Assembly: GCA_029959285.1 (NCBI GenBank)
Contig: JASCOE010000001.1
Location: 558,001 to 622,000, forward strand
DNA length: 64,000 nt
Direction: 5' to 3'
From: Flavobacteriaceae bacterium PS02337
GTDB lineage: Bacteria; Bacteroidota; Bacteroidia; Flavobacteriales; Flavobacteriaceae
Made by a program: the position numbers and the translations under genes. Below the pieces are notes generated by a model. It made no database searches. It saw only the letters and a list, made by a program, of their open reading frames with translations, and was not told the origin of the DNA. Shown here piece by piece: positions 17,123 to 55,080 of this stretch (the stretch's first letter is position 1; each line of letters opens with the position of its first letter).

Positions 17123-18310
17123 TCAAAAAGCATCATTTTCAATTAAATCTTTCATTTGTTTATCGAGATTAAAATTCTGTTTTGCATGAATAAAAATTCT
17201 GTTTTTCATGGCTTGAATTTCATTTTTATCTATTTCTGAAATCTGTTTTAAAGCAATATTTAAACCTTTAAAATCTTCAACAGGAACAACCCAGCCCAGA
17301 TTATTTTCTTCAACAATATTTTCGCCTTCGCCTCCGCCAAAATATAAAACAGGAAATCCTAAAGCGCTGTATTCGAATATTTTTGAAGGAACAGAACCGT
17401 AAATTCTTGTTTTTAAAGGAACAAGAGCGATATCCAAAGTCATTAATTTTTCATGCAGAACATTCCGTTCTAACATTCCATGAAAAATAATTTTCTGCAT
17501 CGGATTTTGATTCATATAATCGACAATTTGAGCTTTCTCTGCTCCATCGCCAAAAATATGTAATTCGACATTTAAATGTTCTAAATCCAATTTTTGAATA
17601 AGTTCAAAAACACCTTGCGCAACGCCCAATAATCCTGCGTAAAACAATTTTATTGGTTCGTTAGAATTTTCATTTTCATGGATATTATTTTCCACAAAAT
17701 GATCGGGATAATTACGATATAAAAAGCATTTTTTTTCTGGAAAGATAGAATGAATATGATCTATAATTTCATTGGATTGACCAAAAACATGCGTTGCTTT
17801 TTTGTAAATGAAACGTTCTATAAAAAGCAGCATTTTATGCGAAATACTGTTTTTCTTTAAAACGCCAAGTTCAATTGCCGCAGTTGGCCAAAGATCCGAG
17901 ACGTTCAAAATTATTTTTTTTCTTTTAATCCAAAGTGCAAAAACAGCCGTAAAAGACAACAATAAAGGCGGAGATTGTACAATTACTTTTTTAGGTGTTT
18001 TGGCAAATAGTAAGAAGAAAAATAAAATAGTTGAGAAAGAAAACGTTGAAATAATTCTTTTAAAAATATTAGAACTATTACTCGGATAAATCCAAAGCCG
18101 TTTTAAAGTGATATTTTGAATTTTTTCTGTAACCGAGAATTTGTCCTTGTATTCTGGAAAAATCTCTCCTTTTGGATAATTTGGAAGCGGAGAAATCACC
18201 GAAACTTCATATCCGTTTTGGTTTAATTTCAGCGCCAATTGCTCAATTCTGTTTGCAGCGGCACCTTTTTCTGGCGGATAATAATTGGATATAATTAAAA
18301 TTTCTTTCAT
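17123..18310 (-). CDS. Family 4 glycosyltransferase (WbuB-like)
   Basis: This 395-residue GT-B transferase opens with ILIISNYYPPEKGAAANRI, the pattern of WbuB-like enzymes that move N-acetylated amino sugars in O-antigen synthesis. A hydrophobic stretch (FSFSTILFFFLLFA) around residues 90-103 probably docks it to the membrane. The donor domain has LFYAGLLGVAQGV and IFEYSALGFPVLYFGGGE. Its start overlaps the wecB stop by one base (TAATG), so it should be translationally coupled and may use the ManNAc/FucNAc-type sugar produced from that epimerase step. The specific acceptor is unknown. Confidence 0.9.
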   Translation of the reverse strand: MKEILIISNYYPPEKGAAANRIEQLALKLNQNGYEVSVISPLPNYPKGEIFPEYKDKFSVTEKIQNITLKRLWIYPSNSSNIFKRIISTFSFSTILFFFLLFAKTPKKVIVQSPPLLLSFTAVFALWIKRKKIILNVSDLWPTAAIELGVLKKNSISHKMLLFIERFIYKKATHVFGQSNEIIDHIHSIFPEKKCFLYRNYPDHFVENNIHENENSNEPIKLFYAGLLGVAQGVFELIQKLDLEHLNVELHIFGDGAEKAQIVDYMNQNPMQKIIFHGMLERNVLHEKLMTLDIALVPLKTRIYGSVPSKIFEYSALGFPVLYFGGGEGENIVEENNLGWVVPVEDFKGLNIALKQISEIDKNEIQAMKNRIFIHAKQNFNLDKQMKDLIENDAF

Positions 18311-19395
18311 TATTTATCCAATAAAATTGAAATAATTCTTTCCGATGCTTTTCCGTCCCATAATTCTGGAATACTGCTTTTTCTAGCGCCATTTTGTAAA
18401 AATGAACCAAAAACTTTTTTCAGATTTTCAAAAGAAGTACCTACAATTGTGTTTGTTCCAATAGTTTCTGTTTCAGGTCTTTCGGTATTATCTCGCATCG
18501 TAAAACATGGAATTCCAAGAACGGTTGTTTCTTCAGAAATTCCGCCGCTGTCTGTAATAACTGCAAAACTGTTTTTGATTAAATACATAAAATTCAGATA
18601 ACCTTGAGGCGAAACAAAAATGATGTTTTTGAACTCGATTTTGCTTTCGCTTAAAATTGCCTGTGTTCTCGGATGAATTGGGAAAATTATTTTTTTATCA
18701 TTTACTAAAGAATCAATTCCGTGAAGCAAATCGATAAGCGATGAAACTTCATCAACATTTGCTGGACGATGCAACGTTAAAATGATATAATTTTTTTCTT
18801 GTAATTGATGTTCATTCCAAAAATCTGGCGCCGAACTTCTATCAATATTCTGGTATAAAGTATCGATCATAACATTCCCCACAAAATGTACATTTTTTGG
18901 ATCTGAGCCTAATTTCAATAAATTTTCTGAAGCCGATGTTGAGGTTGTAAAAAAGTAATCTGTAATACTGTCCGTCAGTATTCGGTTGATTTCTTCAGGC
19001 ATTGTTAAATCTCCAGAACGAATTCCGGCTTCAACATGTGCTACTTTTGTGTTGCATTTTTTTGCCACAATTGAGCATGCCATCGTTGAGTTAACGTCGC
19101 CAACAACCAAAACCAAATCGCACGGATTTCGAAGTAATTCTTTTTCAAAAGCAATCATAATTGCGGCTGTTTGTTCAGCTTGTGAACCGCTTTTTACTTC
19201 CAAATTTACATCTGGTTGCGGAATATTTAATTCCTCAAAAAAAGTATCGCTTAAGTTTTTATCATAATGCTGACCGGTGTGCACCAAACGAAATGAGATA
19301 TCAAAACCTTCACTTTGCTTGCTTTTGATAGCATTAATAATAGGTGCTATTTTTATAAAGTTTGGCCTTGCACCTGCAATTATGGTAATTTTCAT
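18310..19395 (-). CDS. wecB: UDP-N-acetylglucosamine 2-epimerase (non-hydrolysing)
   Basis: This 361-residue cytosolic enzyme interconverts UDP-GlcNAc and UDP-ManNAc. The sequence shows ITIIAGARPNFIKIAP at the N-terminus, LVHTGQHYDKNLSDTFFEEL, VVGDVNSTMACSIVAKK, HVEAGIRSGD and MPEEINRILTDSI, and the C-terminal FAVITDSGGISEETTVLGIP with TMRDNTERPET. All are hallmarks of WecB/MnaA. The usual partner, UDP-ManNAc dehydrogenase, is not in the window. It has its own promoter at 19432-19439 and shares its mRNA with the downstream WbuB-like transferase. Confidence 0.96.
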   Translation of the reverse strand: MKITIIAGARPNFIKIAPIINAIKSKQSEGFDISFRLVHTGQHYDKNLSDTFFEELNIPQPDVNLEVKSGSQAEQTAAIMIAFEKELLRNPCDLVLVVGDVNSTMACSIVAKKCNTKVAHVEAGIRSGDLTMPEEINRILTDSITDYFFTTSTSASENLLKLGSDPKNVHFVGNVMIDTLYQNIDRSSAPDFWNEHQLQEKNYIILTLHRPANVDEVSSLIDLLHGIDSLVNDKKIIFPIHPRTQAILSESKIEFKNIIFVSPQGYLNFMYLIKNSFAVITDSGGISEETTVLGIPCFTMRDNTERPETETIGTNTIVGTSFENLKKVFGSFLQNGARKSSIPELWDGKASERIISILLDK

Positions 19396-19506: not shown

Positions 19507-19549
19507 CTTGAAGATTGGAGATCACAATTTGTGATCTCCAATCTTCAAG
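19507..19549. repeat. 43-base perfect palindrome (palindrome 1 of the ORF6N cluster)
   Basis: Two 21-base arms flank a single central T at 19528; every arm base pairs. The core GATCACAA-T-TTGTGATC is the A/T variant of the GTCGCAA-T-TTGCGAC core found nearby. It shares the seven bases CTTCAAG with palindrome 2. Confidence 0.9.
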
Positions 19550-19572
19550 GTCGCAATTTGCGACCTTGAAGA
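19542..19572. repeat. 31-base perfect palindrome (palindrome 2), with flanking homology to the ORF6N gene
   Basis: The core AAGGTCGCAA-T-TTGCGACCTT is identical to the one inside the ORF6N gene at 19973-20005. To its right, 19573-19600 also aligns with 20006-20034 of the gene. Over about 43 columns I count six substitutions and one deletion. This stretch is thus a decayed copy of gene-internal sequence in the same orientation. Confidence 0.85.
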
Positions 19573-19604
19573 ATTGCATCATTTTCAATAAGTTAAAATA
19601 TAGA

Positions 19605-19631
19605 CTTGAAGTCACAATTTGTGACCTCAAG
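19605..19631. repeat. 27-base imperfect palindrome (palindrome 3)
   Basis: Thirteen-base arms around a central T at 19618 pair at all but one position. The core is AGTCACAA-T-TTGTGACC, the G/C-to-A/T variant of the shared motif. Confidence 0.8.
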
Positions 19632-19632
19632 T

Positions 19633-19661
19633 TTTCAAGGTCGCAATTTGTGACCTTAAAG
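19633..19661. repeat. 29-base imperfect palindrome (palindrome 4) next to the ORF6N stop codon
   Basis: The centre is T at 19647. The arms hold AAGGTCGCAA on one side and TTGTGACCTT on the other, so it is a hybrid of the two core variants, with three non-complementary arm positions. It lies 10 bases past the ORF6N stop and could act as its terminator. Confidence 0.75.
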
Positions 19662-19671
19662 ATTTATAAAT

Positions 19672-20202
19672 TTATTTTTTATAACCAATCTTAACTCTTT
19701 CAGACTCGTTTTCTTTTTTCTCCGTTAATTCATCTAAATAAGAAAAAACCAATTCAATATTTTTATCGTGATTTTCTAACTTCTTTTGAATCTGAAGTAT
19801 ATCAACTTTAATTTCTGTTGTGTCCAAAAGCATTTGTCTCACTTTCGTGAAAATCCTCATGATTTGAATATTGGTTTGAATGGCTTTATCGCTTTTTAGA
19901 ACGCTTGATAACATTAAAATTCCATGTTCTGTGAAAACAGATGGAAGATATTTTTGATGTTCTCCTCTTCCTTTCTTTAAGGTCGCAATTTGCGACCTTA
20001 AAGAATTGTATTCATTTTCAGTTAGTTGAAACATAAAATCTTCTGGAAATCTTGATAAATTTCTTTTTACTTGTTCATTTAGTCTTTTAGTTTCAACATC
20101 ATAAAGAGAAGCTAGATCACTATCCAGCATCACTTTTTGACCACGGATAAAATATATTTTATTAGAAATTGTTTCTTCAGAAAGTAAAGAAGTATTGTCC
20201 AT
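19672..20202 (-). CDS. ORF6N-domain DNA-binding protein
   Basis: This 176-residue protein carries an ORF6N domain (about residues 12-110). The segments YFIRGQKVMLDSDLASLYDV, TKRLNEQVKRNLSRFP, FMFQLTENEY and YLPSVFTEHGILMLSSVLKS are the family's conserved blocks. ORF6N is a KilA-N-associated putative DNA-binding domain known from phages and from many copies in Bacteroidota chromosomes. A predicted coiled coil (about 125-170) follows. No other phage gene is nearby. Residues 66-77 are encoded by a 33-base perfect palindrome, and related palindromes lie just past the stop. It interrupts the minus-strand polysaccharide genes and has its own promoter, so it is probably an insertion. Confidence 0.92.
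   Translation of the reverse strand: MDNTSLLSEETISNKIYFIRGQKVMLDSDLASLYDVETKRLNEQVKRNLSRFPEDFMFQLTENEYNSLRSQIATLKKGRGEHQKYLPSVFTEHGILMLSSVLKSDKAIQTNIQIMRIFTKVRQMLLDTTEIKVDILQIQKKLENHDKNIELVFSYLDELTEKKENESERVKIGYKK
19973..20005. repeat. 33-base perfect palindrome inside the ORF6N coding sequence
   Basis: Sixteen-base arms flank a central T at 19989, with core AAGGTCGCAA-T-TTGCGACCTT. It encodes residues 66-77 (NSLRSQIATLKK) of the ORF6N protein. The same core recurs at 19542-19572 and, as variants, in three more palindromes downstream of the gene. Confidence 0.9.
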
Positions 20203-20244: not shown

Positions 20245-21555
20245 TCATAAATAAGATTGAAACTGTTTTAATTTCCCGCGATTGGATCTTTCTAAAACAG
20301 TTTTTCGTATAAAAGTGAAGTTTAAATTGGGTTCTAAATACAAATCTATTGCTTCTTTTATTTTTTTAATTTGTTCTGAAACTAATGCTGTATCAGAAAC
20401 ATATTCAATTTCAAAAGAATCTAATTTTGTTTGTTTGATGATAAATTCTTTTACGTTTCCATCATCTTCAATAATACTTTTGGTTACGTAATAAAAGGTC
20501 AGTCCAGGCGATTTTTTGCCACTTGGTAAAATTGCAACGTCATTGGTTCTTCCAATTAGTTTTTTGAGAATTGGTTTTTGTGGTGTACTTTTTTCATCCA
20601 AAATTCCGATGTCGCCAATTTCATATCGTATAAAAGGATTGGCTTTATTGAATAATGAAGTAATTACAATTTTTCCTTCTGTTCCATGTGGAACAGGATT
20701 GTTGTCTTCGTCTAAAATCTCAACAAACAGCGTTTCTGAGTTTACTTGCCATTGACGTTCAGGATTTTCAAAAGCAATTAAATCCAATTCAGAAGCGCCA
20801 TATTCTCTTATAATTGGAATTCCGAATTGTTTTTCGAGTAGTTTTTTATCCGATTCAAAAAGCATTTCAGAAGTAACAAAACAAGCTTTTAAAGTCGGAC
20901 AAACTTCATTCAAAACTATATTTTTTTGTTCTAAAAATTTAGCAAATAAAACTATAGAACTTGTATAACCATTGATATAATTGAATTTTTTCGATTTGAA
21001 TTTCTGTAGAAATTTTTCTAAAACTTCATCAGATAAATCAAAAACGGGAAAACGAAAACGATTCGTGAGAAAATCTTTGAAACGCTCTTTTTGGTATCCA
21101 ATAAAATCTAATGGAATTCCGTAAAAACGCGCTTGATACGAATGATTAAAATCAATTCCAAACCAGCCAAAACGCATTATAATTGAAGACCAAGTTAAAG
21201 CATGAGAATATTTATCTTTAGCAAAAACAAATGGAGTTCCGCTAGATCCGGAAGTTTTGTTGAGGTAAATATTTTTTTTGGAATATCCTTTTGAAAGTCT
21301 TTCTTCAAGAGGTTTTTGAAGATTCTGTTTGTTCAAAATTGGTAAATCTTCCCAGTTTTCAACAGTTTTATTTCCAACCAAATTTTTGTAAAACGAATTG
21401 TTATTCAGATGAAAATCAACGATTTCTTTCTTTTTATTTTGAAGGAAAAGAGTATATTCTTCTTCAGACAGATTGATAATTTTCTCCAATTCAGATTTGG
21501 CTTTCTTTATCGGAAAACCATTTAATCGAAGAGAAATATCAAATAAAGAAATCAT
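20245..21555 (-). CDS. CapK/PaaK-like adenylate-forming enzyme
   Basis: This 436-residue protein belongs to the phenylacetate-CoA-ligase-like group often found in capsule loci as CapK. It shows the ATP-binding loop NKTSGSSGTPFVFAKD, IREYGASELDLIAFE at the adenylate site, and the hinge ITSLFNKANPFIRYEIGDIG. The C-terminal catalytic Lys is probably in NRGKLKQFQ. Enzymes of this group activate a carboxylic acid; in polysaccharide loci they are thought to prepare acyl decorations, but substrates are mostly unproven. It is the most upstream gene of the minus-strand half. Confidence 0.85.
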   Translation of the reverse strand: MISLFDISLRLNGFPIKKAKSELEKIINLSEEEYTLFLQNKKKEIVDFHLNNNSFYKNLVGNKTVENWEDLPILNKQNLQKPLEERLSKGYSKKNIYLNKTSGSSGTPFVFAKDKYSHALTWSSIIMRFGWFGIDFNHSYQARFYGIPLDFIGYQKERFKDFLTNRFRFPVFDLSDEVLEKFLQKFKSKKFNYINGYTSSIVLFAKFLEQKNIVLNEVCPTLKACFVTSEMLFESDKKLLEKQFGIPIIREYGASELDLIAFENPERQWQVNSETLFVEILDEDNNPVPHGTEGKIVITSLFNKANPFIRYEIGDIGILDEKSTPQKPILKKLIGRTNDVAILPSGKKSPGLTFYYVTKSIIEDDGNVKEFIIKQTKLDSFEIEYVSDTALVSEQIKKIKEAIDLYLEPNLNFTFIRKTVLERSNRGKLKQFQSYL

Positions 21556-54995: not shown

Positions 54996-55003
54996 AATCA
55001 TAA

Positions 55004-55032
55004 AAAAGACCTTCAAATTTTGAAGGTCTTTT
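55004..55032 (+). terminator. Terminator after the amidase gene
   Basis: AAAAGACCTTCAA (55004-55016) pairs with TTGAAGGTCTTTT (55020-55032) around a short loop, followed by TGTTT. Confidence 0.9.
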
Positions 55033-55080
55033 TGTTTATAGTTCTTTGTCAAAGTTCAAAATTTAGACAGAGATTATATT

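Follow-up and report, generated by a model that had tools for sequence, protein, structure and literature searches.

An intragenic operator is familiar from the lac system, in which O2 lies within lacZ. Here, we describe a palindrome in coding DNA for which a comparable role is proposed, located in a 64,000-nt stretch of Flavobacteriaceae bacterium PS02337 (assembly GCA_029959285.1, contig JASCOE010000001.1, positions 558,001 to 622,000; this whole stretch is hereafter termed the window). The initial annotation of the window had reported one palindrome inside a gene for an ORF6N-domain protein and four more past the stop codon of that gene, and all five are present (P5 in the gene, P1-P4 beyond it; Table 1). 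Like lac O2, the site proposed here would belong to a regulator and lies inside coding DNA; lac O2, however, falls outside the sequence for the loop with which its regulator reads DNA, and such a site is not shared by the whole family.

Palindromic DNA that sits in frame in coding genes is also known from the Rickettsia and Wolbachia palindromic elements (RPE/WPE), described in the available part of PMC2996958 as in-frame insertions at assorted positions of housekeeping genes, whereas the palindrome studied here is tied to one protein family and one loop, with a centre common across phyla. The same text presents palindromic amphipathic repeat coding elements (PARCELs) as dyad-symmetric coding DNA that has spread widely by horizontal transfer, made of 25-residue tandem repeats of imperfect symmetry, many of them in membrane-targeted proteins. 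In contrast, ORF6N genes usually carry one near-perfect palindrome in a protein of DNA-binding type, and a Pfam scan of the window gene gave ORF6N as its sole domain and no sign of the PARCEL hallmark, a 25-residue amphipathic tandem repeat (DUF285). In REPtrons, palindromes lie near a TnpA-REP gene, and the encoded protein recognises them in hairpin form (PMC8266576, available in part). Neither the HuH transposase nor the high palindrome copy number of these systems is seen here: the gene beside the palindromes is of the ORF6N/anti-repressor kind, its neighbours match AMP-binding (weakly) and Epimerase_2 rather than a HuH/Y1 transposase, and the exact core of the window palindromes, RTCRCAAWTTGYGAY, has 6 sites in the 5.7-Mb genome. 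Perfect inverted repeats in conserved coding sequence have further been reported for mitochondrial genes of four species of Nematomorpha, for which the accessible text of PMC6649704 names no common core, whereas the palindromes described here share a centre. As far as these partly available sources go, none of the RPE/WPE, PARCEL and nematomorph cases combines a link to a single DNA-binding family with a common centre.

The in-gene palindrome is a family-wide trait of ORF6N genes. These genes were gathered by protein or profile, with the palindrome not used as a criterion, from 200 genus genomes (118 matched), 296 phylum genomes (89 matched), named genomes of many phyla (the best 80 loci) and viral contigs (38 loci), the genus and phylum loci being the best-scoring matches rather than all of them. 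Unique coding sequences were counted, and a palindrome was scored if at least 11 of 13 pairs formed within the 135 nt before the FTE motif. For an unbiased count, 12 genes from pattern-fetched loci were removed (195 genes instead of 207), although they still contribute to the permutation null, control windows, flank mismatch count and class list. By this measure, 178 of the 195 genes carry the palindrome, and 189 do so at a threshold of 10/13; the carriers comprise 31/31 genes of the genus set, 61/68 of the phylum set, 68/73 from named genomes and 18/23 from viral contigs, and thus span many phyla as well as viruses. With 40 further genus loci included, and again leaving aside these 12 genes, 68 of 69 parsed genes reach 11/13 and the remaining one 10/13, a single locus of the 70 (L431) being unparsed. 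Synonymous-codon shuffling within each gene produced 11/13 in 1.1% of cases (207 genes), and 140-nt control windows taken from other parts of these genes did so in 1 and 4 of 207. The gene finder, which requires a motif of the F.E[QH]G type, returned no gene in 18/62, 8/80 and 10/38 loci of three batches; checked apart over approximate spans, 24 of these 36 loci reach 11/13. The initial annotation had proposed to test whether the core clusters with ORF6N genes and, within them, at the codons for LRSQIATLK. Across the genus, the core goes with ORF6N instead of being spread at random, as it occurs in 98 of the 118 genomes that match the window protein versus 15 of the 82 others (Fisher 1.7e-20), and nearly every parsed ORF6N gene has a palindrome at these codons or their counterparts rather than coding for the same residues without one. 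Both observations lend support to its view that the palindrome itself is selected or copied.

Some loci depart from the common type. Three ORF6N loci (L133, L143, L154) have a GAAWTTC-type centre in place of CAAWTTG, for example GTGGTCGAAAATTTCGACCGC, and an Elusimicrobia contig (L220) holds several successive ORF6N genes whose palindromes differ in class. An unbiased scan of viral contigs for a 17-base core returned at least 120 stretches, with 5 sites less than 500 nt from a detectable ORF6N gene among the matches listed; it neither helps nor harms the interpretation put forward below, because several of the stretches inspected away from ORF6N resemble terminator hairpins. Such hairpins with a GGTCRCAAWTTGYGACC core and no ORF6N gene nearby, e.g. 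in L308, L331 and L339, are probably due to chance in a very large collection. In viral contig L342, at approximately position 903, an ORF6N-type palindrome with GAACCGGTCGC-type arms sits in frame (EPVANCDRFEK) in a viral open reading frame near which no ORF6N gene was detected, possibly a rare escape of the palindrome element.

The palindrome is conserved as DNA and is not a by-product of the encoded peptide, since it is read in two phases, since its arms evolve together, often with amino-acid changes, and since a pairing rule set beforehand held. Around the common CA...TG centre, 163 genes use phase 0, with R-S-Q-[IF]-[AV]-T as the commonest peptides, and 26 use phase 1, most often as V-V-A-N-C-D-H or L-V-T-N-C-D-R (V[TA]NCD type). 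Arm changes were placed on a tree built quickly by maximum likelihood from the upstream neighbour gene of 51 positional orthologs, defined by conservation of that neighbour. On this tree, a minimum of 32 changes was counted in the left stem. Among independent pairs that differ in the left arm, the right arm differs as well in 10-12 of 10-12 at positions 4, 8, 10, 11 and 13 (4 of the 51 position-8 pairs are not Watson-Crick despite the joint change), in 3 of 3 at position 12, and in only about half of 7 at position 7, while positions 5, 6 and 9 are invariant. Among the orthologs, a Lys/Glu difference on one arm is accompanied on the other by a silent difference in Leu, and a Thr/Ile difference by a silent one in Arg. 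The rule that TTC on the left needs GGA on the right, i.e. Phe with Gly, held in L089, L091, L111 and L117; the RYQFGT genes (L080, L094, L096), with one pair broken, are exceptions. Across the 167 distinct 33-mers from within genes, pairing reaches 86-98% at positions 4-12, most of which show several pair types, and is lowest of positions 1-13 at position 1 (72%). Swaps of loop class also alter residues outside the palindrome.

Related families differ in this respect. For Bro-N, 14 of 30 phylum loci reach 11/13 within the domain (synonymous null 1.2%), and 13 of the same 30 have a CA...TG-centred hairpin, again in two reading phases. KilA-N, by the same measure, yielded 1/30 compared to 30/30 for ORF6N. 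The Bro-N gene dinD of E. coli K-12 has no such palindrome, so the trait is not universal in Bro-N; it is tied to particular families among those tested and not to every Bro-N member.

At the window locus, the ORF6N protein matches PF10543 with 124.4 bits (gathering score 27.8; E 2.2e-36) and the PDC-S05 profile over residues 1-175 of 176 (E 2e-73). P1-P4 share the centre of P5 and lie between the ORF6N gene and the downstream epimerase-family gene. The initial annotation was right about the two core variants and about their matching between the arms of P1 and of P2. The window contains 4 odd palindromes with perfect arms of at least 12, against 0.018 expected from base composition; three are P1, P2 and P5, and the fourth (55003-55033, centre 55018, perfect arms of 15, A and T runs) is probably an ordinary terminator. 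With up to 2 mismatches, the core has 7 matches in the window, a number reached in 0 of 100 shuffles. The exact genomic sites are P1-P5 and a chance-like sixth, which lacks extended arms and falls inside an unrelated open frame of 310 residues; the reversed pattern, used as a control, has no site in the whole genome. A genome-wide repeat was rejected for this core, five of its six sites being at the locus (other cores were not scanned genome-wide). Three ORF6N genes were found in this genome, all with in-gene palindromes of 13/13, and the two paralogs of the window gene use another core, GGTTCCAAWTTGGAACC. The codons of P5 are rare among their synonyms in five neighbouring genes (AGG 3%, AAG 7%, ACC 14%, GCG 15%, TCG 17%).

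Table 1. Features of the ORF6N locus (window coordinates)
Feature	Position	Strand	Basis or remark
ORF6N gene, 176 aa	19672..20202	-	PF10543 match; also PHROG anti-repressor families, PADLOC candidate PDC-S05
P5, in-gene perfect 33-bp palindrome, arms of 16	19973..20005		Sequence; encodes residues 66-77, N-SLRSQIATLK-K
P4, imperfect palindrome, one arm of TTTAAGG class and the other of TTCAAGG class	~19634..19660		
P3, near-perfect (imperfect) palindrome, CTTGA class	~19604..19632		
P2, perfect palindrome, arms of 15, TTCAAGG class	19542..19572		
P1, perfect palindrome, arms of 21, TTGGAG class; terminator-like on minus strand	19507..19549		
Upstream gene adjoining ORF6N	20245..21555	-	Weak below-cut-off AMP-binding PF00501 match
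Downstream neighbour, UDP-N-acetylglucosamine 2-epimerase family	18310..19395	-	PF02350 (Epimerase_2)

The upstream neighbour, which we take to be capK-like, likewise precedes ORF6N in 51 of the 69 genus loci parsed; a freshly mobile gene was therefore rejected as an explanation of this locus. Within 60 nt of the ORF6N start, 29 of the 51 positional orthologs have a TAnnTTTG motif, nearly always 25-29 nt before it, presumably of the Bacteroidota -7 type.

Core hairpins are also enriched beside ORF6N genes. Within 300 bp of the gene, their density is 0.49/kb upstream and 0.71/kb downstream, versus 0.010/kb beyond 500 bp (192 genes; starts were taken at the first Met, and L220, with its several ORF6N genes, was left out of the far count, which is 12 hits with it and 3 without). 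Flank units in the genus set are mostly downstream (38 vs 5 upstream), and loci numbered L072 or higher have nearly all of theirs upstream (23 vs 2 downstream). The genus arrays past the stop codon comprise the same four main stem classes as the in-gene palindromes, in a similar order in several species, and 9 of 62 genus flank units have arms of two classes. In the window array, P1 and P2 have 8 bases and the outer stem in common, the TTCAAGG class of P2 is the in-gene class of 8/51 positional orthologs, P3 contains one G.T pair, and P4 combines an A.C mismatch in the core with a T.G pair in the stem. At L142 (G278:C160), a broken ORF6N copy retains its palindrome; next come three abutting palindromes of other stem classes, spaced at 34 bp, and then an intact ORF6N gene. 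Among 20 broken ORF6N copies fetched, 6 lack the core palindrome, some of these copies being heavily decayed.

Our preferred explanation, still tentative, is self-regulation: the ORF6N protein would bind the palindrome and thereby control its own gene, and template switching would keep the two arms alike. The palindrome would then be a DNA recognition element carried inside the coding sequence of ORF6N genes and of part of the Bro-N genes. As the initial annotation had proposed, binding by the ORF6N protein itself, which is predicted to be winged-helix-like, is possible for these palindromes, and the palindrome would encode part of a variable loop in the predicted wing. When a loop allele is exchanged, loop and site would travel together; units close to the start codon, and in the genus also the array past the stop codon, may join the in-gene site as operators for self-regulation, and template switching during replication would maintain the matched arms. 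In a bolder version, the DNA that codes for part of the DNA-reading loop of ORF6N and some Bro-N proteins would itself be what these proteins recognise, the palindrome serving both as code for the variable wing and as target site; this version appears doubtful to us.

Several observations weigh against this explanation. Flank copies are a minority trait (upstream units at 18 loci and downstream units at 18, among 192 genes); most genes have none, which argues that an operator outside the gene is not general. Units in the genus arrays belong to the stem class of the resident gene in 13 of 70 cases, compared to 17.9 expected (fraction at or below observed 0.036; 0.012 to 0.12 over cuts and scoring modes). 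This shortage argues against stem-specific recognition by the resident protein and leaves only the core that could be read; over all loci, including the pattern-fetched ones, there is a weak opposite trend, with an arm identity of 6.41 vs 6.09 of 9 (2/500 permutations). Flank units may, moreover, differ from their gene in the core as well (L233, L259), and the notion that the loop reads its own DNA is weakened by the mixed-class arrays. Fold matches for the protein were weak, as were the matches from a sequence search of solved structures.

Among the rival explanations, purely mutational maintenance is unlikely, albeit credible. Quasi-palindrome template switching would copy one arm onto the other, so that the palindrome stays perfect and multiplies locally while being unselected; such switching is known for yeast coding DNA and RNA stems (PMC8604942 and PMC8794818, each available in part) and would fit the almost complete pairing of arm changes on the ortholog tree, the stem common to P1 and P2 and the two-class arms of some genus flank units. 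However, it predicts matched arms but neither one centre across many phyla and both frames nor the fact that KilA-N genes almost lack the palindrome, and the broken ORF6N copies that lack the core palindrome, heavily decayed ones included, speak against it. A palindrome that is mobile but bound to the locus, inserting in frame in the ORF6N loop and beside the gene with ORF6N perhaps as its mobiliser (cf. REP/transposase pairs and the Rickettsia elements), seems quite unlikely, even though 8 of 207 genes hold two core palindromes, an apparent decayed phase-1 palindrome stands beside a phase-0 one in L138, L141 and L150, four different palindromes at 34-bp spacing mark the broken copy at L142, and the L342 palindrome lies in frame in another viral reading frame. 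Dispersal into many unrelated genes, as in Rickettsia, was not encountered in the host genome (other cores were not scanned genome-wide), the far-flank density is low, swaps bring in linked residues beyond the palindrome as if whole loop alleles moved, and neither the ORF6N gene nor its two neighbours gave a match to a nuclease or transposase domain. Genome-wide, the self-spreading palindrome raised in the initial annotation is not supported, as no convincing further copy of this core was found in the window's own genome; the copies within the locus are real.

The same annotation had considered RNA hairpins. These are predicted to form, at -11 to -31 kcal/mol with a 3-nt loop into which the least-paired position 1 falls, and a simple scan classed P1, P3 and P5 as terminator-like. 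Nevertheless, mismatches on the mRNA strand show no G.U preference (35 GU vs 43 AC in genes, 23 vs 35 in flanks), which speaks against a sense-strand RNA structure; flank units occur on either side of the gene, and P5 is terminator-like on the strand opposite to the gene. No known RNA family was matched at gathering score in an Rfam scan of the window. An RNA role in mRNA stability, processing, termination or translational self-control is possible, unsupported by the mismatch types, and on balance rather improbable. Were the flank palindromes silent cassettes, i.e. donors that rewrite the in-gene palindrome and so diversify the loop, genus arrays holding the gene's four main stem classes in similar order and a left stem that changes this often would be accounted for; yet class swaps change residues beyond the palindrome, no such coding stretch was seen by eye in the arrays inspected, and loci from L072 on are almost devoid of downstream units, which makes this scenario very improbable. 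Finally, the peptide SQ[IF][AV]T can be encoded as a palindrome, but a by-product of its conservation plus chance deserves virtually no credence: it is refuted by the shuffling of synonymous codons inside each gene and by the use of a second reading frame, and the rare codons and flank copies likewise argue against it.

The in-gene ORF6N pattern appears to be undescribed. A literature search, whose coverage leaves out preprints and most subscription-journal papers, found no paper on coding palindromes in ORF6N or Bro-N, and the available part of PMC8263062, which names Bro-N, has nothing on them. ORF6N/PDC-S05 is counted, in sources available in part, among the frequent single-gene defence candidates, for most of which validation is pending, and a DNA site locked into a protein's own coding sequence across phyla would give a direct handle on its binding target. 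The pattern is relevant to the persistence of palindromes in bacterial coding DNA and offers a clear natural case of a nucleotide-level constraint that shapes protein sequence, a change in one arm going with an amino-acid change on the other and one DNA element being retained in two reading frames. It would also link the identity of a protein to a DNA site in its own gene: if the bolder version is true, loop alleles could pass between genomes with the regulator never parted from its operator.
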